Of a DNA stretch of 45,227 bases, positions 1 through 44,402 are shown in pieces; positions within the stretch are counted from its first letter, which is position 1, and each line of letters begins with the position of its first letter. A program made the translations under genes and the position numbers. The notes under the pieces were generated by a model. That model did no database searches. It was not told the origin of the DNA and saw only the letters and a list, made by a program, of their open reading frames with translations. The stretch covers positions 1-45,227 of the forward strand of contig JAIYAZ010000134.1 in assembly GCA_027488755.1 (NCBI GenBank), read 5' to 3'. The DNA is from Verrucomicrobiaceae bacterium. Lineage in GTDB: Bacteria > Verrucomicrobiota > Verrucomicrobiia > Chthoniobacterales > JAATET01.

Positions 1-1
1 C

Positions 2-277
2 CCGACCTATAAAAGTTACATTGATATTGTGGAGATTCCTCGCACAAACTCACTAGGGAATTTGATTTTATCAATTTTGGACAGAGATGATCCTCTCTAT
101 CGATTTGAACTTCATGCCCCAGATGGATATTTGTGGTCGGCGGCAACATACAATCCAAGCAGCTACAAACCTCAAAAAAGCAGAGTGATTTGGGAGTCTC
201 CTGGACGAGCTAAAACATTTTTAGATGATTCCCCGCGATTTGAGTTGGTTGGACATTTGTGGCGTGAGTTTGAATAA
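2..277 (+). CDS. Hypothetical cassette protein, 5' end outside the window
   Basis: The reading frame is open to the left edge of the window, so the start is probably outside it; an internal GTG at 29 exists, but codons 2-28 read sensibly (PTYKSYIDI). The visible C-terminal 91 residues are soluble, with no membrane segment and no motif that I recognise; aromatic and acidic residues are common (RFELHAPDGYLW, RVIWESPGR). The TAA stop at 275-277 touches the R'' box of the first attC, the usual gene-to-attC arrangement in a cassette. Codon use is AT-rich compared with the housekeeping genes further right, as expected for a captured gene. Function unknown. Confidence 0.75.
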   Translation, partial: PTYKSYIDIVEIPRTNSLGNLILSILDRDDPLYRFELHAPDGYLWSAATYNPSSYKPQKSRVIWESPGRAKTFLDDSPRFELVGHLWREFE

Positions 278-406
278 GCCGAACAAGGCGCTGCAGCTAA
301 CCCCTAGAAGCGACCGCGCCGGTTTTGTTCCGACCGACCGGCTTTTCCCTCACCCCACTCTTTAAGCTTGGTCGCCCGTTCGGGGTAGCTGAGCTTGACG
401 TTAGGC
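278..406 (+). other. attC site 1
   Basis: R'' GCCGAAC at 278-284 and R' GTTAGGC at 400-406, with exchange expected between G400 and T401. The inner arms (AAGGCGCTGCAGCTA near 285-299 and TAGCTGAGCTTGAC near 386-399) pair with one or two unpaired bases, like the extrahelical bases of folded attC sites. The centre is a GC-rich inverted repeat around CCGACCGACCGG. Confidence 0.92.
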
Positions 407-525
407 CATTTCAATCAAGACAGGGCAAGCTTGCCACTACATCAGCCCATCTTGGCCCTCCTGTCGGAGGCCAAGAGCGGCTTCTCCCCTGATGCATTCT
501 ACGGTTTATTCCTGCATCCCCGCAG

Positions 526-563
526 ATCAGAGAGCGTGTGCAGAGCCACACCCTCTCTGATCT
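526..563 (+). promoter_or_regulatory. Strong hairpin in cassette 2 leader
   Basis: AGATCAGAGAG (526-536) is the exact reverse complement of CTCTCTGATCT (553-563). After one C-C mismatch the stem continues with GTG (538-540) and CAC (549-551), leaving an 8-base loop. It lies 52 bases upstream of the cassette gene start at 616, in the otherwise empty 407-615 leader. No T-run follows, so it is not a standard terminator. It could be an operator or an RNA leader structure; its role is not known. Confidence 0.5.
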
Positions 564-615
564 ACTTTCCGCCGCCCTAACTTGTGTCCGCGGCTATTCC
601 CCCACTCTTTCCCAA

Positions 616-873
616 ATGAAGTCTAAACAAAGTTTTCCCTGGTTCCAACTTTTGTGGCGAGCCACTGTGTGGACTCCTATTGGAATTATCATTTCAGTGC
701 TTTTGATTTCTTCGGCCGGTGCCACCATTATTCTACCCATCACTGGAGCGATTTACCTTTTTTCAGGTGATTATTTCACCGGCTTCATCTTCCTTGTCTC
801 AGCTATACCCGCATTCTTCCTCGCTCGTTTCATGAAGAAGCATTTCTGGGAGGAGCCCCCATCCTTACTTTGA
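616..873 (+). CDS. Small two-helix membrane protein (cassette 2)
   Basis: An 85-residue protein starting MKSKQSFPWFQLLWRA. There are two hydrophobic segments, about residues 17-46 (TPIGIIISVLLISSAGATII onward) and 52-72 (FTGFIFLVSAIPAFFLARF), followed by a short basic tail (MKKHFWEEPP). It should be a small inner-membrane protein. The ATG at 616 is preferred over an upstream GTG at 538, which would add a 26-residue polar extension running through the hairpin at 526-563. It is the only gene of cassette 2 that I can support. Small membrane proteins of unknown function are common in integron cassettes. No homologous family is recognised. Confidence 0.7.
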   Translation: MKSKQSFPWFQLLWRATVWTPIGIIISVLLISSAGATIILPITGAIYLFSGDYFTGFIFLVSAIPAFFLARFMKKHFWEEPPSLL

Positions 874-882
874 CGCAGATTG

Positions 883-1011
883 GCCTAACAAGGCGCTGCA
901 GCTAACCCCTAGACGCGCACCGGCCGGTTTTGTTCCGACCGACCGGCTTTTCCCTCACCCCTCACTTTACGCTTGGTCGCCCGTTCGGGGTAGCTGAGCT
1001 TGACGTTAGCC
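883..1011 (+). other. attC site 2
   Basis: R'' GCCTAAC at 883-889 and R' GTTAGCC at 1005-1011; exchange between G1005 and T1006. Length is 129 bp and the sequence is nearly identical to site 1 outside the R boxes and a few central positions. R'' complements the start of its own cassette (TTAGGC at 401), not the R' that follows it. Confidence 0.93.
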
Positions 1012-1017
1012 CATTTT

Positions 1018-1593
1018 ATGAATTCCCCACAACGCTCTCTTGAGCTTGCGATCGCTCATGGCGATACAGCCGAGACCAAGATACTTATAGATAGTCATCC
1101 GGATCTATTAAATGTCCACTTCACAGAAAATATTGGATTGACCCCACTGATGTGGGCGTGCCGCAACAGGCATGTTACGATTGTGGAGCTACTTCTGGAG
1201 CGCGGCGCCTCAATCAATGAAATTAATTTTAAAGATATTAGTGGCGATGGCGGAAACTCTGCTTTGTGGTTTACTGCTCAAGGTATTTTCCCTGGAACGG
1301 TTTCTATTGCGCGGCTTCTCACTCAGGCGGGCGCAACGATTGATCAAACTGGTGAGCATGGAACCACTGCCTTTTACATGGCAGTAACTTGGGTCCACAT
1401 TGAACTTGTTCAGTATCTACTTTCCTGTGGCGCGAATCCGTCCATAAGGAACGACCGCGGATTGACGGCGTTAGACTCAGTTCAAAAAGACTTTTTATGG
1501 TGTGAGTCCCAAGAGAAGCATACCGATACCACGAAGAGATTGATGCTGCGCGCTCCGAGAATGATCGCATATCTTAAGTCCATACAGGGCTAA
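1018..1593 (+). CDS. Ankyrin-repeat protein (cassette 3)
   Basis: A 191-residue protein with about four ankyrin repeats. Typical repeat cores are IGLTPLMWACRNRHVTIVEL with LLERGASIN, and TTAFYMAVTWVHIELVQYL with LSCGANPSIRNDRGLTALD. Ankyrin repeats form protein-binding stacks; no catalytic domain, signal peptide or membrane segment is seen, so a cytosolic adaptor, inhibitor or immunity-type role is possible but unproven. The ATG at 1018 is only 12 bases after the recombination point; an upstream TTG at 1000 lies inside the preceding attC and is less likely. The TAA stop (1591-1593) lies inside R'' of the next attC, so gene and attC overlap by six bases. Confidence 0.88.
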   Translation: MNSPQRSLELAIAHGDTAETKILIDSHPDLLNVHFTENIGLTPLMWACRNRHVTIVELLLERGASINEINFKDISGDGGNSALWFTAQGIFPGTVSIARLLTQAGATIDQTGEHGTTAFYMAVTWVHIELVQYLLSCGANPSIRNDRGLTALDSVQKDFLWCESQEKHTDTTKRLMLRAPRMIAYLKSIQG

Positions 1594-1716
1594 CAAGGCG
1601 CTGCAGCTAACCCCTAGACGCGCACCGGCCGGTTTTGCTCCGACCGACCGGCCTTTCCCTCACACCTCTCTTTACGCTTGGTCGCCCGTTCAGGGTAGCT
1701 GAGCTTGACGTTCGGC
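1588..1716 (+). other. attC site 3
   Basis: R'' GGCTAAC at 1588-1594 and R' GTTCGGC at 1710-1716; exchange between G1710 and T1711. The site is 129 bp and differs from site 2 at only a few positions. Its R'' complements the start of its own cassette (TTAGCC at 1006). Confidence 0.93.
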
Positions 1717-1728
1717 TATATTGAAATC

Positions 1729-2232
1729 ATGAAACTCTTATCCACACTCTTTCTTCTTGGCACAACGCCCCTTCTTTTTGCAGTGGAGCCCATTCCGAAT
1801 CGCCTCATCGATTACCCAGGCTTCCAAAACATCGTGCTGACTTCGGCTGCTGAGCGTGAATCTCATCGATTAACCGAGCAACAGTTCATTGATGCACTTT
1901 CAGAGGATGGCATTGTTCTTCTTGACGCAAGAAGCCCAGGTAAATTTGCCTTGAGACACATTAAAGGTGCACTGAATCTCCCTTTCACTGATTTCACCGC
2001 CGAGACCCTATCTAGAGTCATTCCGTCAAAATCCACTAAGGTTTTGATTTACTGTAACAATAATTTCGAAGGCAGCCCAATCGCATTTGCATCCAAGTCA
2101 CCAGCCGCATCACTCAATCTTGCTACATACACCTCTTTAAAAGCTTACGGATATACGAACATCTTTGAGCTTGGCCCACTACTTGATGTTAGCAAGACAC
2201 AGATTCCGTTCGCTGGTAGCGAGGTGCAGTAA
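1729..2232 (+). CDS. Secreted rhodanese-domain protein (cassette 4)
   Basis: A 167-residue protein with an N-terminal signal peptide (MKLLSTLFLLGTTPLLFA, cleavage near residue 18). A single rhodanese-like domain follows at about residues 48-155: IVLLDARSPGKFALRHIKGA is the classic strand-aspartate-helix segment, and LIYCNNNFEG carries the candidate catalytic Cys109 at the start of the active-site loop. Rhodaneses carry sulfane sulfur or act in thiol chemistry; the exact substrate cannot be told. The export signal points to the periplasm. The ATG at 1729 is chosen because it starts the signal peptide; a TTG at 1705 lies inside attC site 3. The stop is one base before R'' of the next attC. Confidence 0.87.
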   Translation: MKLLSTLFLLGTTPLLFAVEPIPNRLIDYPGFQNIVLTSAAERESHRLTEQQFIDALSEDGIVLLDARSPGKFALRHIKGALNLPFTDFTAETLSRVIPSKSTKVLIYCNNNFEGSPIAFASKSPAASLNLATYTSLKAYGYTNIFELGPLLDVSKTQIPFAGSEVQ

Positions 2233-2233
2233 A

Positions 2234-2363
2234 GCCGAACAAGGCGCTGCAGCTAACCCCTAGACGCGCACGGGCCGGTTTTGCTTCGACCGACCGGCTT
2301 TTTCCTTTCGGCCTGAACTTACGCTTGATCGCCGGTTTGGGGAGGCAGAGATTGACGTTCGCT
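2234..2363 (+). other. attC site 4, terminal and partly decayed
   Basis: R'' GCCGAAC at 2234-2240 complements the start of its own cassette (TTCGGC at 1711), and R' GTTCGCT is at 2357-2363. The 5' half is almost identical to the other three sites. The 3' half has diverged: the L' arm reads GGAGGCAGAGATTGAC instead of GGTAGCTGAGCTTGAC, and the preceding stretch is also altered, so the two arms pair less well. It is the last site in the array. Poor folding would make it a weak recombination site. Confidence 0.88.
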
Positions 2364-2364
2364 A

Positions 2365-2874
2365 ATGGTGACTAAGTTGCAGGATCCCGATGATTTCCGT
2401 ATCTGGCTGAAGGAGTTTTTTGTGCCGGCCGCAGGGAAAGCGGGCTGCCCTTGCCGGTTTCCGAGATTTCGATTTCTGGCTGGTTTCTTCCATCGTGACT
2501 TCGACGCGGGGCCAGTTGGCTGTATCGAAACCGAGCTTATCGTCGATACCTTATTTCGAAGGGAGTTCACGCCTTATACTTCCCGCACGAGCGATGAACG
2601 GGGCCGGATCACATCCCTGTGCTCGATCTGCCATACGGAATGGATCGAGGATTACGAGGATTACAGCATTTCGTTTTATCGATCATTTGTGAGGCCACGA
2701 TCCACTGAGTTTGAGGACGTTGGAGCCGTGGTCGTATTTCCATTTCCGTTGGTATTTGGCTTTTATGCTTTTCAGCAGGAAGACAAAGACAGGTTGTCGG
2801 ATCGATTTCCGATTACGGATTTCGCGACGTTTGAACGCTATCTTTTGGAACCACGCGCGACGGGCAGCGCCTAG
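2365..2874 (+). CDS. Hypothetical protein directly behind the last attC
   Basis: A 169-residue soluble protein starting MVTKLQDPDDFRIWLKEFF. The ATG lies two bases after the R' box of attC site 4, the spacing seen for a cassette gene, but no attC follows its stop at 2874 and no sequence complementary to its first bases (TTCGCT) is found downstream. It is therefore either an old last cassette that has lost its attC or the first resident gene beyond the array. Four cysteines sit in two pairs (CPC near residue 28, CSIC near 94), which could bind a metal, but no family is recognised. Composition is intermediate between the array and the high-GC genes. Confidence 0.72.
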   Translation: MVTKLQDPDDFRIWLKEFFVPAAGKAGCPCRFPRFRFLAGFFHRDFDAGPVGCIETELIVDTLFRREFTPYTSRTSDERGRITSLCSICHTEWIEDYEDYSISFYRSFVRPRSTEFEDVGAVVVFPFPLVFGFYAFQQEDKDRLSDRFPITDFATFERYLLEPRATGSA

Positions 2875-2964: not shown

Positions 2965-3510
2965 ATGAGGGTGATCGCTGGGCTGGTTGCGGGGGTTTTT
3001 CTTTTGGGGTGCCGCCCGCAGGGCCAGGATTTCAAGGCCTGGAGTTCGCCGCGCGCGGAGTCTTTGCGGGAGGCGATGGCGGAGGATCCGCGGGATGCAA
3101 AGGCGTTTTACTGGCGGGGGTATGCGGCGTCGCACATCAACGATGTGGCGACGGTGCGTGAGAGTTATCGGCGGGCGATTCAGCTCGATCCGAAGAATGA
3201 GTGGTATCAGATCAGTTACGGGTGGGCGTTGTTTAACGCAGGGGCGTTCGCGGAGGCACGGGATCAGTGGTTGCGAGCGGAGGCGTTTTGCCGGGGGGAG
3301 CACCCGCAGAATGAGATTACCGTGGCGCTGGGGTTTTATGGCGTTGGGGATTTTGCGAAGGCGGCGGAGCGGTATGATCGGCAGGTGAAGCGGGATCGGG
3401 CGTTTGCGACGTTTGCGGGCCTGGAGGAGGCGACGGCCCATTGGACGTGGCGGGAGAAGGTGGCGGTTTATGATTTGTTCGATATCTGGCGCTACAGCTA
3501 CCGGAGGTGA
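2965..3510 (+). CDS. TPR-containing lipoprotein
   Basis: A 181-residue protein with a lipoprotein signal peptide ending in the lipobox LLGC (Cys16), so it should be lipid-anchored to the envelope. The mature part carries tetratricopeptide-type helix pairs: AKAFYWRGYAASHINDVATV, then RESYRRAIQLDPKNEWYQIS and a third pair around EITVALGFYGVGDFAKAAER. TPR repeats act as protein-protein scaffolds. It is the first clearly high-GC chromosomal gene right of the integron, ends before a bidirectional terminator at 3586-3617, and appears monocistronic. No specific partner can be named; the neighbouring genes are all envelope genes. Confidence 0.82.
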   Translation: MRVIAGLVAGVFLLGCRPQGQDFKAWSSPRAESLREAMAEDPRDAKAFYWRGYAASHINDVATVRESYRRAIQLDPKNEWYQISYGWALFNAGAFAEARDQWLRAEAFCRGEHPQNEITVALGFYGVGDFAKAAERYDRQVKRDRAFATFAGLEEATAHWTWREKVAVYDLFDIWRYSYRR

Positions 3511-3585
3511 GGTGGCGGTGCCCGGCCTGGTTGGCGGAGGGAGGTGAGTTTGGCCGGATTGGCGCGGAGGCGGCGGTGGAAAATG

Positions 3586-3617
3586 AAAAAGCCCGGGAGG
3601 TTTCCCGGGCTTTTTTT
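3586..3617. terminator. Bidirectional intrinsic terminator
   Basis: AAAAAGCCCGGGA (3586-3598) pairs with TCCCGGGCTTTTT (3603-3615), giving a 13-bp stem with a 4-base loop and flanked by an A-run on the left and a T-run on the right. It can stop transcription from both sides of the convergent pair 2965-3510 (+) and 3649-4467 (-). Confidence 0.92.
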
Positions 3618-3648
3618 GTGGGCGGATGGCGGGGGCGGGGCGGGCCGG

Positions 3649-4467
3649 CTAGGGGGCGGGGGCCGTTAGGGGGTTGGAGAGGTTGACGGAGTTCATGACG
3701 ACGAAGAGGAGTTGTTCGAGGACTTCGGGGGTGGTGCGGTAGATGTCCTGCGTGCCGGCGGGGGGGAGCCAGGTGGCGGGGGGGAGGCTGGGGGCGAAGG
3801 TGAGTTCTTCGATGCCGACGGTGGCGGTGAAGTCGCGGCGGGTGACTTTGATTTGGCGGGGGAGGTAGCCGGCGGCGACCCACATGGTGGCGCGGAAGTC
3901 TTCGGCTTTGGTGGCGGTGGCGAGTTCGGGCATGAGGCTGCCGCTGATGACGCGGGTGGGTTCGCCGTTGATGTCTTCGTAGGTTTTGCCTTCGTCGAGG
4001 ACGAAGAGGGCGGGGAGGAAGATGGCCTGCTGGGCGGTGATGGGGAGGAAGAGGGGGGTGTTGGTGGATTTGCGGGGTTTGGGGAGCTTGCCGGCGAATT
4101 GTTTGAGGAGGTATTCGACCTTTTCGCCGGGGGTGGCCCAGACTTCGTTGCCGTTGCGGCAGACGGTGATTTGTTCGCCGAGGACGGGGGCCTGGAGTTT
4201 GAGTTTGTCGGGGAACTGGACGGCGGCTTCGAGGGTGGCGCCGCGGAATTGCGCGGGGAGGCGGCCGGTGACGTCGCGCATGATGAGGCGGAGGGAGGCG
4301 GCGCGGTCGCCTTGTTTGCCGCCGACGAGGAGGACGCTGAAGAAGGGTTTGAAGACTTTGAAGATGATGTCGAAGCGGTTGTCGGCGGGGGCTTCGGCGG
4401 CGCGTAGGGGGGTGCCCGCGAGGGGGACGATGAAGAGGAGGGCGGTGGCCAGGAGCGGGCGGGTCAT
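3649..4467 (-). CDS. Putative periplasmic LolA-like protein
   Basis: A 272-residue protein with a signal peptide (MTRPLLATALLFIVPLAGTPLRAA). The middle part resembles the half-barrel of LolA/LolB-type lipid or lipoprotein carriers: FRGATLEAAVQFPDKLKLQA, then EQITVCRNGNEVWATPGEK, then SGSLMPELATATKAEDFRAT and AGYLPRQIKVTRRDF. The match is by pattern of short beta-strands and typical turns, not by a catalytic motif, so the assignment is tentative. The ATG at 4467 is chosen over a TTG 12 bases upstream. It is transcribed divergently from the ExbB-like operon starting at 4567 and would act in the periplasm. It is longer than E. coli LolA by about 70 residues. Confidence 0.65.
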   Translation of the reverse strand: MTRPLLATALLFIVPLAGTPLRAAEAPADNRFDIIFKVFKPFFSVLLVGGKQGDRAASLRLIMRDVTGRLPAQFRGATLEAAVQFPDKLKLQAPVLGEQITVCRNGNEVWATPGEKVEYLLKQFAGKLPKPRKSTNTPLFLPITAQQAIFLPALFVLDEGKTYEDINGEPTRVISGSLMPELATATKAEDFRATMWVAAGYLPRQIKVTRRDFTATVGIEELTFAPSLPPATWLPPAGTQDIYRTTPEVLEQLLFVVMNSVNLSNPLTAPAP

Positions 4468-27146: not shown

Positions 27147-27548
27147 TCAGGCGAAGGTCTGAATGGTCAGGGACTCGATCTGCAGGGAGAAGCGCACCGC
27201 GTGGTAGAAAACCGGGGACGCAAAACCCCGCAGATACAGACTCAGCGGCCGGGAGACGGTGATGTGCGCCGAGGGTTTCATCAGGGCGAATCTCCCCGAA
27301 ACCTTCGACGCCCCGAACTTCAACACCTCCCCGAGAGCGTCTCCGTATGGGAATTCCACCGTGGGCTCGGAGAAAAGGTCAACCCGGTCCAACTCATCCT
27401 TGTTCGAGGGATGTTCGCCAATGGCTTTGATGACCTTCGCGTCATCGCGAGTGACATAGACGAAAGGCTCAAGCGGAAACTCGTTGTCGCCCTTCCGAAA
27501 GACGATCTGGTGAATGTCCGCTTGGATGATGAGTTTGGATGCGAGCAT
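27147..27548 (-). CDS. Hypothetical protein upstream of the tautomerase gene
   Basis: A 133-residue soluble protein starting MLASKLIIQADIHQIVFRKG; an in-frame start seven codons upstream is possible. It is rich in beta-type segments (FPLEPFVYVTRDDAKVIKAI, GRFALMKPSAHITVSRPLSL, AVRFSLQIESLTIQTF). No signal peptide, membrane helix or catalytic motif is recognised. It ends 12 bases before the tautomerase start, which suggests one operon and perhaps a related metabolic role, but nothing in the sequence shows which. Confidence 0.65.
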   Translation of the reverse strand: MLASKLIIQADIHQIVFRKGDNEFPLEPFVYVTRDDAKVIKAIGEHPSNKDELDRVDLFSEPTVEFPYGDALGEVLKFGASKVSGRFALMKPSAHITVSRPLSLYLRGFASPVFYHAVRFSLQIESLTIQTFA

Positions 27549-27766
27549 GGCCTGCCGATGGCGTTGCACTGGGCTATTCGAAATGGATCAGCAAGCTCAA
27601 GCGGTGATCTGAGGAAAATGCTGCCTCATCGGATCAAACCTGACCAATGCGCATCTACGGGTGAGAGCCGGCGGCTTAGCAGAGCCCGATGGCAGCCGAG
27701 CGGAGGACGTCGGAATGTGATCGCGCTCCGCCCCCGCACCCCAGCGAAGCCCGTCGGCCCCGCTTC

Positions 27767-44172: not shown

Positions 44173-44402
44173 GGGATGCGTTTTTCGGATTTTTGGTTCG
44201 ATTGACGCATCGAAGAGAGGGCCCGCTCGCGCGAAGCCGCTGGAGACAAACAGTTCGGCCCGTTGGTCGGGACCGCACATCGGTTCGGAAGAACCAGGCA
44301 CCTCGACGTCTCCTCGTCAGGTTGCCGGACCCGCGTTTCCTTGGGCCGCTCTTGATGCTGGCAATATAGTTACGCGCGGAGCGGCCGGGGGGAAAGTCGA
44401 AA

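Follow-up and report, generated by a model that had tools for sequence, protein, structure and literature searches.

The sedentary superintegron of Vibrio cholerae combines a TIGR02249 integrase (VchIntIA, PDB code 2a3v) with an attI site and an array of cassettes of mostly unknown function, whose attC sites carry R''/L''/L'/R' boxes and fold on the bottom strand. The system described here shares these features, however, its array is small (12 attC sites found) and belongs to another phylum, its attC sites are about 130 bp long and have a sequence of their own, and its integrase has an N-terminus extended by about 250 residues. An IntI group longer by about 120 aa, Deltaproteobacteria clade 15, was reported in 2008 and seen as a gene fusion (Nemergut et al., PMC2426708). 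The locus also resembles a CALIN (cluster of attC sites lacking an integron integrase) in that the contig, as it stands, carries attC sites but lacks intI; the same genome contains a full intI and an attI, however, and breaks between contigs may explain the separation. Models of attC exist for Planctomycetes (PMC8352920), and a review already lists integrons in Verrucomicrobiota (PMC8618304); because the latter are in the literature, the present array is a further example of a known gene-capture system, and the initial annotation, which had fairly called integrase and array worth recovering, made the case appear more unusual than it is.

The host belongs to Chthoniobacterales, Verrucomicrobiota, in agreement with the PVC-type genome proposed earlier from the letters alone; the order follows from several loci of its members that match records named Udaeobacter, Chthoniobacter and Chthoniobacterales with full identity. 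The host assembly (G000) comprises 3.48 Mb in 169 contigs and is 99.8% complete. The window, i.e., the whole stretch of 45,227 nucleotides analyzed, opens inside the array, which occupies the very left edge of contig C73. On reading of the sequence, positions 1-2363 hold four attC sites of ~130 bp interspersed with small genes, all on the forward strand (Table 1). This is almost certainly an integron cassette array of known kind, an assessment that leaves aside the join between C73 and the integrase-bearing contig, C52. With it, an integron that looks functional is on record for an order that has been little studied.

Table 1 Features of the array and its right border at the left end of contig C73 (window coordinates)
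Feature	Positions	Strand	Content and evidence
3' part of cassette 1	1-400	+	Truncated at the contig boundary; incomplete ORF 2-277 (91 aa) without Pfam match
attC site 1	278-406	+	R'' GCCGAAC 278-284, R' GTTAGGC 400-406; nhmmer 2.1e-40; covariance model 132.6 bits
Complete cassette 2	401-1005	+	ORF 616-873 (85 aa); complementarity to own R'' GTTAGGCCA, 9 bases
attC site 2	883-1011	+	R'' GCCTAAC 883-889, R' GTTAGCC 1005-1011; nhmmer 8.3e-43; covariance model 136.8 bits
Complete cassette 3	1006-1710	+	Ankyrin-repeat protein 1018-1593 (Pfam PF00023, 4.7e-19); own-partner complementarity
attC site 3	1588-1716	+	R'' GGCTAAC 1588-1594, R' GTTCGGC 1710-1716; nhmmer 1.3e-41; covariance model 128 bits
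Complete cassette 4	1711-2357	+	Rhodanese-like protein 1729-2232 (Pfam PF00581, 5.8e-10); own-partner complementarity
attC site 4, last and most diverged	2234-2363	+	R'' GCCGAAC 2234-2240, R' GTTCGCT 2357-2363; nhmmer 5.3e-38; covariance model 100.1 bits
Probable terminal cassette without own attC	2358-2874	+	ORF 2365-2874; proposed from sequence features
Boundary zone	2965-3682	+	G+C climbs to 0.62-0.67

The description of the attC sites as nearly identical holds for sites 1-3, which are mutually 91-95% identical (91-93% in the direct-repeat comparison), but not for the more diverged site 4 (64% ungapped); by BLAST, identities are 84-100%. The end of the last repeat at 2363 is a small correction to the initial annotation. 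Gene types vary between cassettes. The ankyrin and rhodanese genes announced there are borne out by Pfam, and the N-terminus of the rhodanese-like protein is hydrophobic and signal-like; the small membrane protein of cassette 2 is hydrophobic on reading only and has no Pfam match. Among the plasmids of the collection, the ankyrin cassette protein has no near match (all <60% identity). The cassette genes represent a source of unknown, non-resistance functions. The G+C content of the cassettes, about 0.42-0.53 as against 0.68 in the host part of the window, fits genes that originated outside the host. The stretch following site 4 is probably a final cassette whose attC was lost, because its ORF begins 7 bases past the last crossover, has a cassette-like G+C of 0.52 and has no homologue in the 57 related genomes searched. 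Rfam gave zero matches inside the array; elsewhere in the window, a SAM-I/IV riboswitch match at 44240-44363 on the reverse strand (42.1 bits) lies barely over the gathering score of 41.1. A degenerate attC-like stretch at 27570-27676 on the reverse strand (nhmmer 1.3e-6) is missed by the covariance model and was not counted. It is followed by an ORF starting near 27547, and is perhaps a relic, perhaps a product of chance.

As first noted from the letters, the bases that follow each junction are complementary to the R'' box of the same cassette, and all three pairings (401 with 883, 1006 with 1588 and 1711 with 2234) proved exact, with uninterrupted complementary runs of 9, 8 and 8 bases that include GTT. 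Among 21 cassettes drawn from the window genome and three congeners, own partners match at 76 of 84 instances of the four variable R positions, whereas shuffled partners give a mean of 54.9 ± 3.3 and a maximum of 71 in 20,000 shuffles. The sites have the R'' (RYYYAAC) and R' (GTTRRRY) boxes of attC, complementary inside one cassette; boxes such as GCCGAAC/GTTCGGC deviate from the strict consensus yet remain complementary. Such a match of own R'' and R' is to be expected of cassettes that were formerly circular.

In the proposed mechanism, a cassette would be captured in circular form: its attC would fold into a hairpin on the bottom strand, whereupon IntI would bind the R and L boxes and join the cassette attC to attI (...CCAATATACTG^TT) or to another attC; excision would follow the same route. 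An inserted cassette would then carry the R' half of its own attC (TTRRRY) at its 5' end, with the R'' half left at its 3' end, a split that would give rise to the own-partner complementarity observed. The attC sites are presumably recombined by IntI, and recombination may well be occurring today. The long IntI encoded on C52 would act in cis if C52 adjoins C73, and otherwise in trans.

The folding of the sites agrees with this role. The bottom strands of sites 1-3 form an attC-like structure that pairs at R (AAC/GTT) and along a 13-pair L stem. One arm of this stem, but not the other, carries two surplus bases, which makes the L''/L' pairing imperfect; the minimum-energy fold of site 4 alone lacks the hairpin of sites 1-3. 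Across 28 sites from four genomes, 92.8% of the stem cells are paired, a share that falls to 26-46% once the partner strand is shifted out of register, and at L-stem column 23/113 the U-A pair becomes G-C in three sites and C-G in two. In stem shuffles, the covariation score (0/500) and the cells changed on both sides (1/500) lie clearly beyond the control, and the other measures only moderately so, since the sites are closely related. A covariance-model search, which the initial annotation had suggested, recovers all four window sites with 100.1-136.8 bits. Furthermore, this model, derived from the present sites, recovers full-length sites adjoining IntI in other taxa, namely Candidatus Contendobacter (2.4e-10), Nitrospinae (4.9e-7), Desulfurivibrio, Nitrospira and several families of Chthoniobacterales.

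Within the genome, the 12 attC sites fall into three clusters of four, on C73, C97 and C98, each at a contig end. Single scattered copies of the 129-bp element, which had been named as part of what would speak against an integron, do not occur. A profile search detected no IntI on any of these three contigs. The array on C97 opens at an attI-like remnant, TCCAATTTACTGTT (L019:7657-7670, 1 mismatch), without a neighboring intI; a NERD-domain cassette follows the remnant, and this domain is the only Pfam match among nine cassette proteins scanned from C97 and C98. The last attC of C97 is cut by an insertion sequence, IS3-like on reading (L019:10967 onward), and the end of C98 (L020:1-120) shows the same type of inverted repeat, TGGCCTGCCCCCG. 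A common array of C97 and C98, interrupted by just one IS insertion, was considered and rejected; the flanking attC halves do not complete each other and the join is therefore not simple. Adjoining the C98 array, L020:2393-3157 on the reverse strand putatively encodes, on reading, a tRNA-His guanylyltransferase-like protein.

The initial annotation had proposed an integron without having seen an integrase. One full IntI is indeed present in the genome, but on a separate contig (C52:40-1734, L018), where it scores 432.1 bits against a curated cut-off of 265, which no match in the control genomes exceeds. A strong IntI match was found in 74 of the 213 Chthoniobacterales genomes searched, with 69 over the curated cut-off. 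Contig C52 breaks exactly at the attI crossover, in the motif ...CCAATATACTGTT, which has the G^TT crossover of attI. In addition to the C52 end, CCAATATACTGTT directly precedes the array in the congener G002 and, with one change, in G001. Both congeners have intI, attI and array in one uninterrupted stretch (G001 C105, G002 C67) and share the genes downstream that flank intI; in the window genome, the contigs break at attI, between intI and array. A break at this very base is what assembly would produce where several different cassettes follow attI or where the repeats mislead it, and is no more than suggestive.

The array on C73 likely represents the far stretch of a sedentary chromosomal integron whose intI lies on C52; since we infer this link, the contig counts formally as a CALIN. 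No contig in the assembly joins C73 to intI, and the left end of C73 overlaps no other contig. Synteny was considered as a link between the two contigs and rejected: from 3682 rightward the sequence is collinear with that of three congeners, in which this locus lacks attC sites and lies away from intI, and the stretch upstream of this flank is poorly conserved even among congeners. The window array could therefore be a separate cluster. It is quite possible that the array is a true CALIN, set apart from the integron after an off-target insertion, a rearrangement or the loss of an intI, as the contig itself carries no intI and the right-flanking locus is array-free in three congeners. Another array of the genome, that on C97, likewise opens at an attI-like remnant with no intI beside it, and the congener G003 (L169-L173) has attC sites on several contigs together with attI, without an IntI match in its 98% complete genome, where the integrase was likely lost; arrays without intI thus occur in the genus. 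However, the open attI end of C52 needs an array, and only C73 and C98 open on the correct side. The IS-like end common to C97 and C98 suggests that these two belong together, so that C73 is left for C52. Moreover, draft assemblies have been reported to break up integrons in this way (PMC9024848).

Such a CALIN would either be inert or depend on the C52 integrase acting in trans, and it is a sub-case of the integron reading in which the attC cassettes are retained. The idea that the repeats are some other dispersed palindromic element (REP-like or IS-derived) that came to lie between genes by chance can draw on their length (~130 bp) and mutual likeness, but it is most improbable and for practical purposes refuted, in that they occur in clusters only and never as single copies, the own-partner complementarity is specific to junctions, the same model matches sites adjoining intI in other phyla, and the genome has a cognate IntI and attI. 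We therefore retain the reading as an integron cassette array, with an adjacency of C52 and C73 that is likely but unproven. The contig break at attI and the duplicated core-binding domain of the integrase are the most useful leads.

The least ordinary part of the system is this long integrase. The ORF on C52 encodes 564 aa with the Pfam domains SAM_4 and Phage_integrase, and its nearest solved structure is VchIntIA (E 1.5e-82), with which it is colinear over 312 residues that span the IntI-specific insert and the H-R-H-Y catalytic region. Within the N-terminal ~245 residues lies a second SAM-like core-binding domain, albeit a weak one; in Pfam it reaches 22.5 bits with SAM_4, below the cut-off, and profile-profile comparison aligns it with the regular core-binding domain (97.9%, E 5.8e-13). 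L113, a related long IntI, was modeled with AlphaFold (mean pLDDT 81), and four N-terminal helices of the model mirror the regular domain. When the extension is modeled alone (pLDDT 89), its best Foldseek match is again IntI 2a3v, with an E of 0.02 that is not significant by itself, and VIA-align gives a Z of 11.5 over 98 residues, a score that is not decisive alone for helical bundles.

In a quick tree of 120 IntI cores, 35 of the 38 long forms fall into one 40-row clade (99% SH-aLRT) that spans Gammaproteobacteria, Thermodesulfobacteriota, Nitrospirota, Nitrospinota and Chthoniobacterales. We found no description of a second core-binding domain in IntI in the papers searched. The long IntI presumably belongs to the same group as the longer proteins of Nemergut et al. 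(PMC2426708), which likewise carry an additional segment, shared by descent, on an otherwise normal IntI; compared with that work, the segment is here recognized as a second core-binding (SAM-like) domain, and the long form, there noted in Deltaproteobacteria, is traced to Gammaproteobacteria, Thermodesulfobacteriota, Nitrospirota, Nitrospinota and Verrucomicrobiota. The array thus draws attention to an IntI subfamily in which the DNA-binding domain is duplicated, and the role of the duplicate is testable. A more speculative and rather unlikely proposal is that, in this multi-phylum clade with tandem core-binding domains, the second domain confers a mode of recombination or site choice unlike that of ordinary IntI, for example by gripping longer attC hairpins or by setting attI preference. 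Besides its regular integrase, G002 carries two additional, divergent IntI-like genes, on C3 (L168) and C157 (L177).
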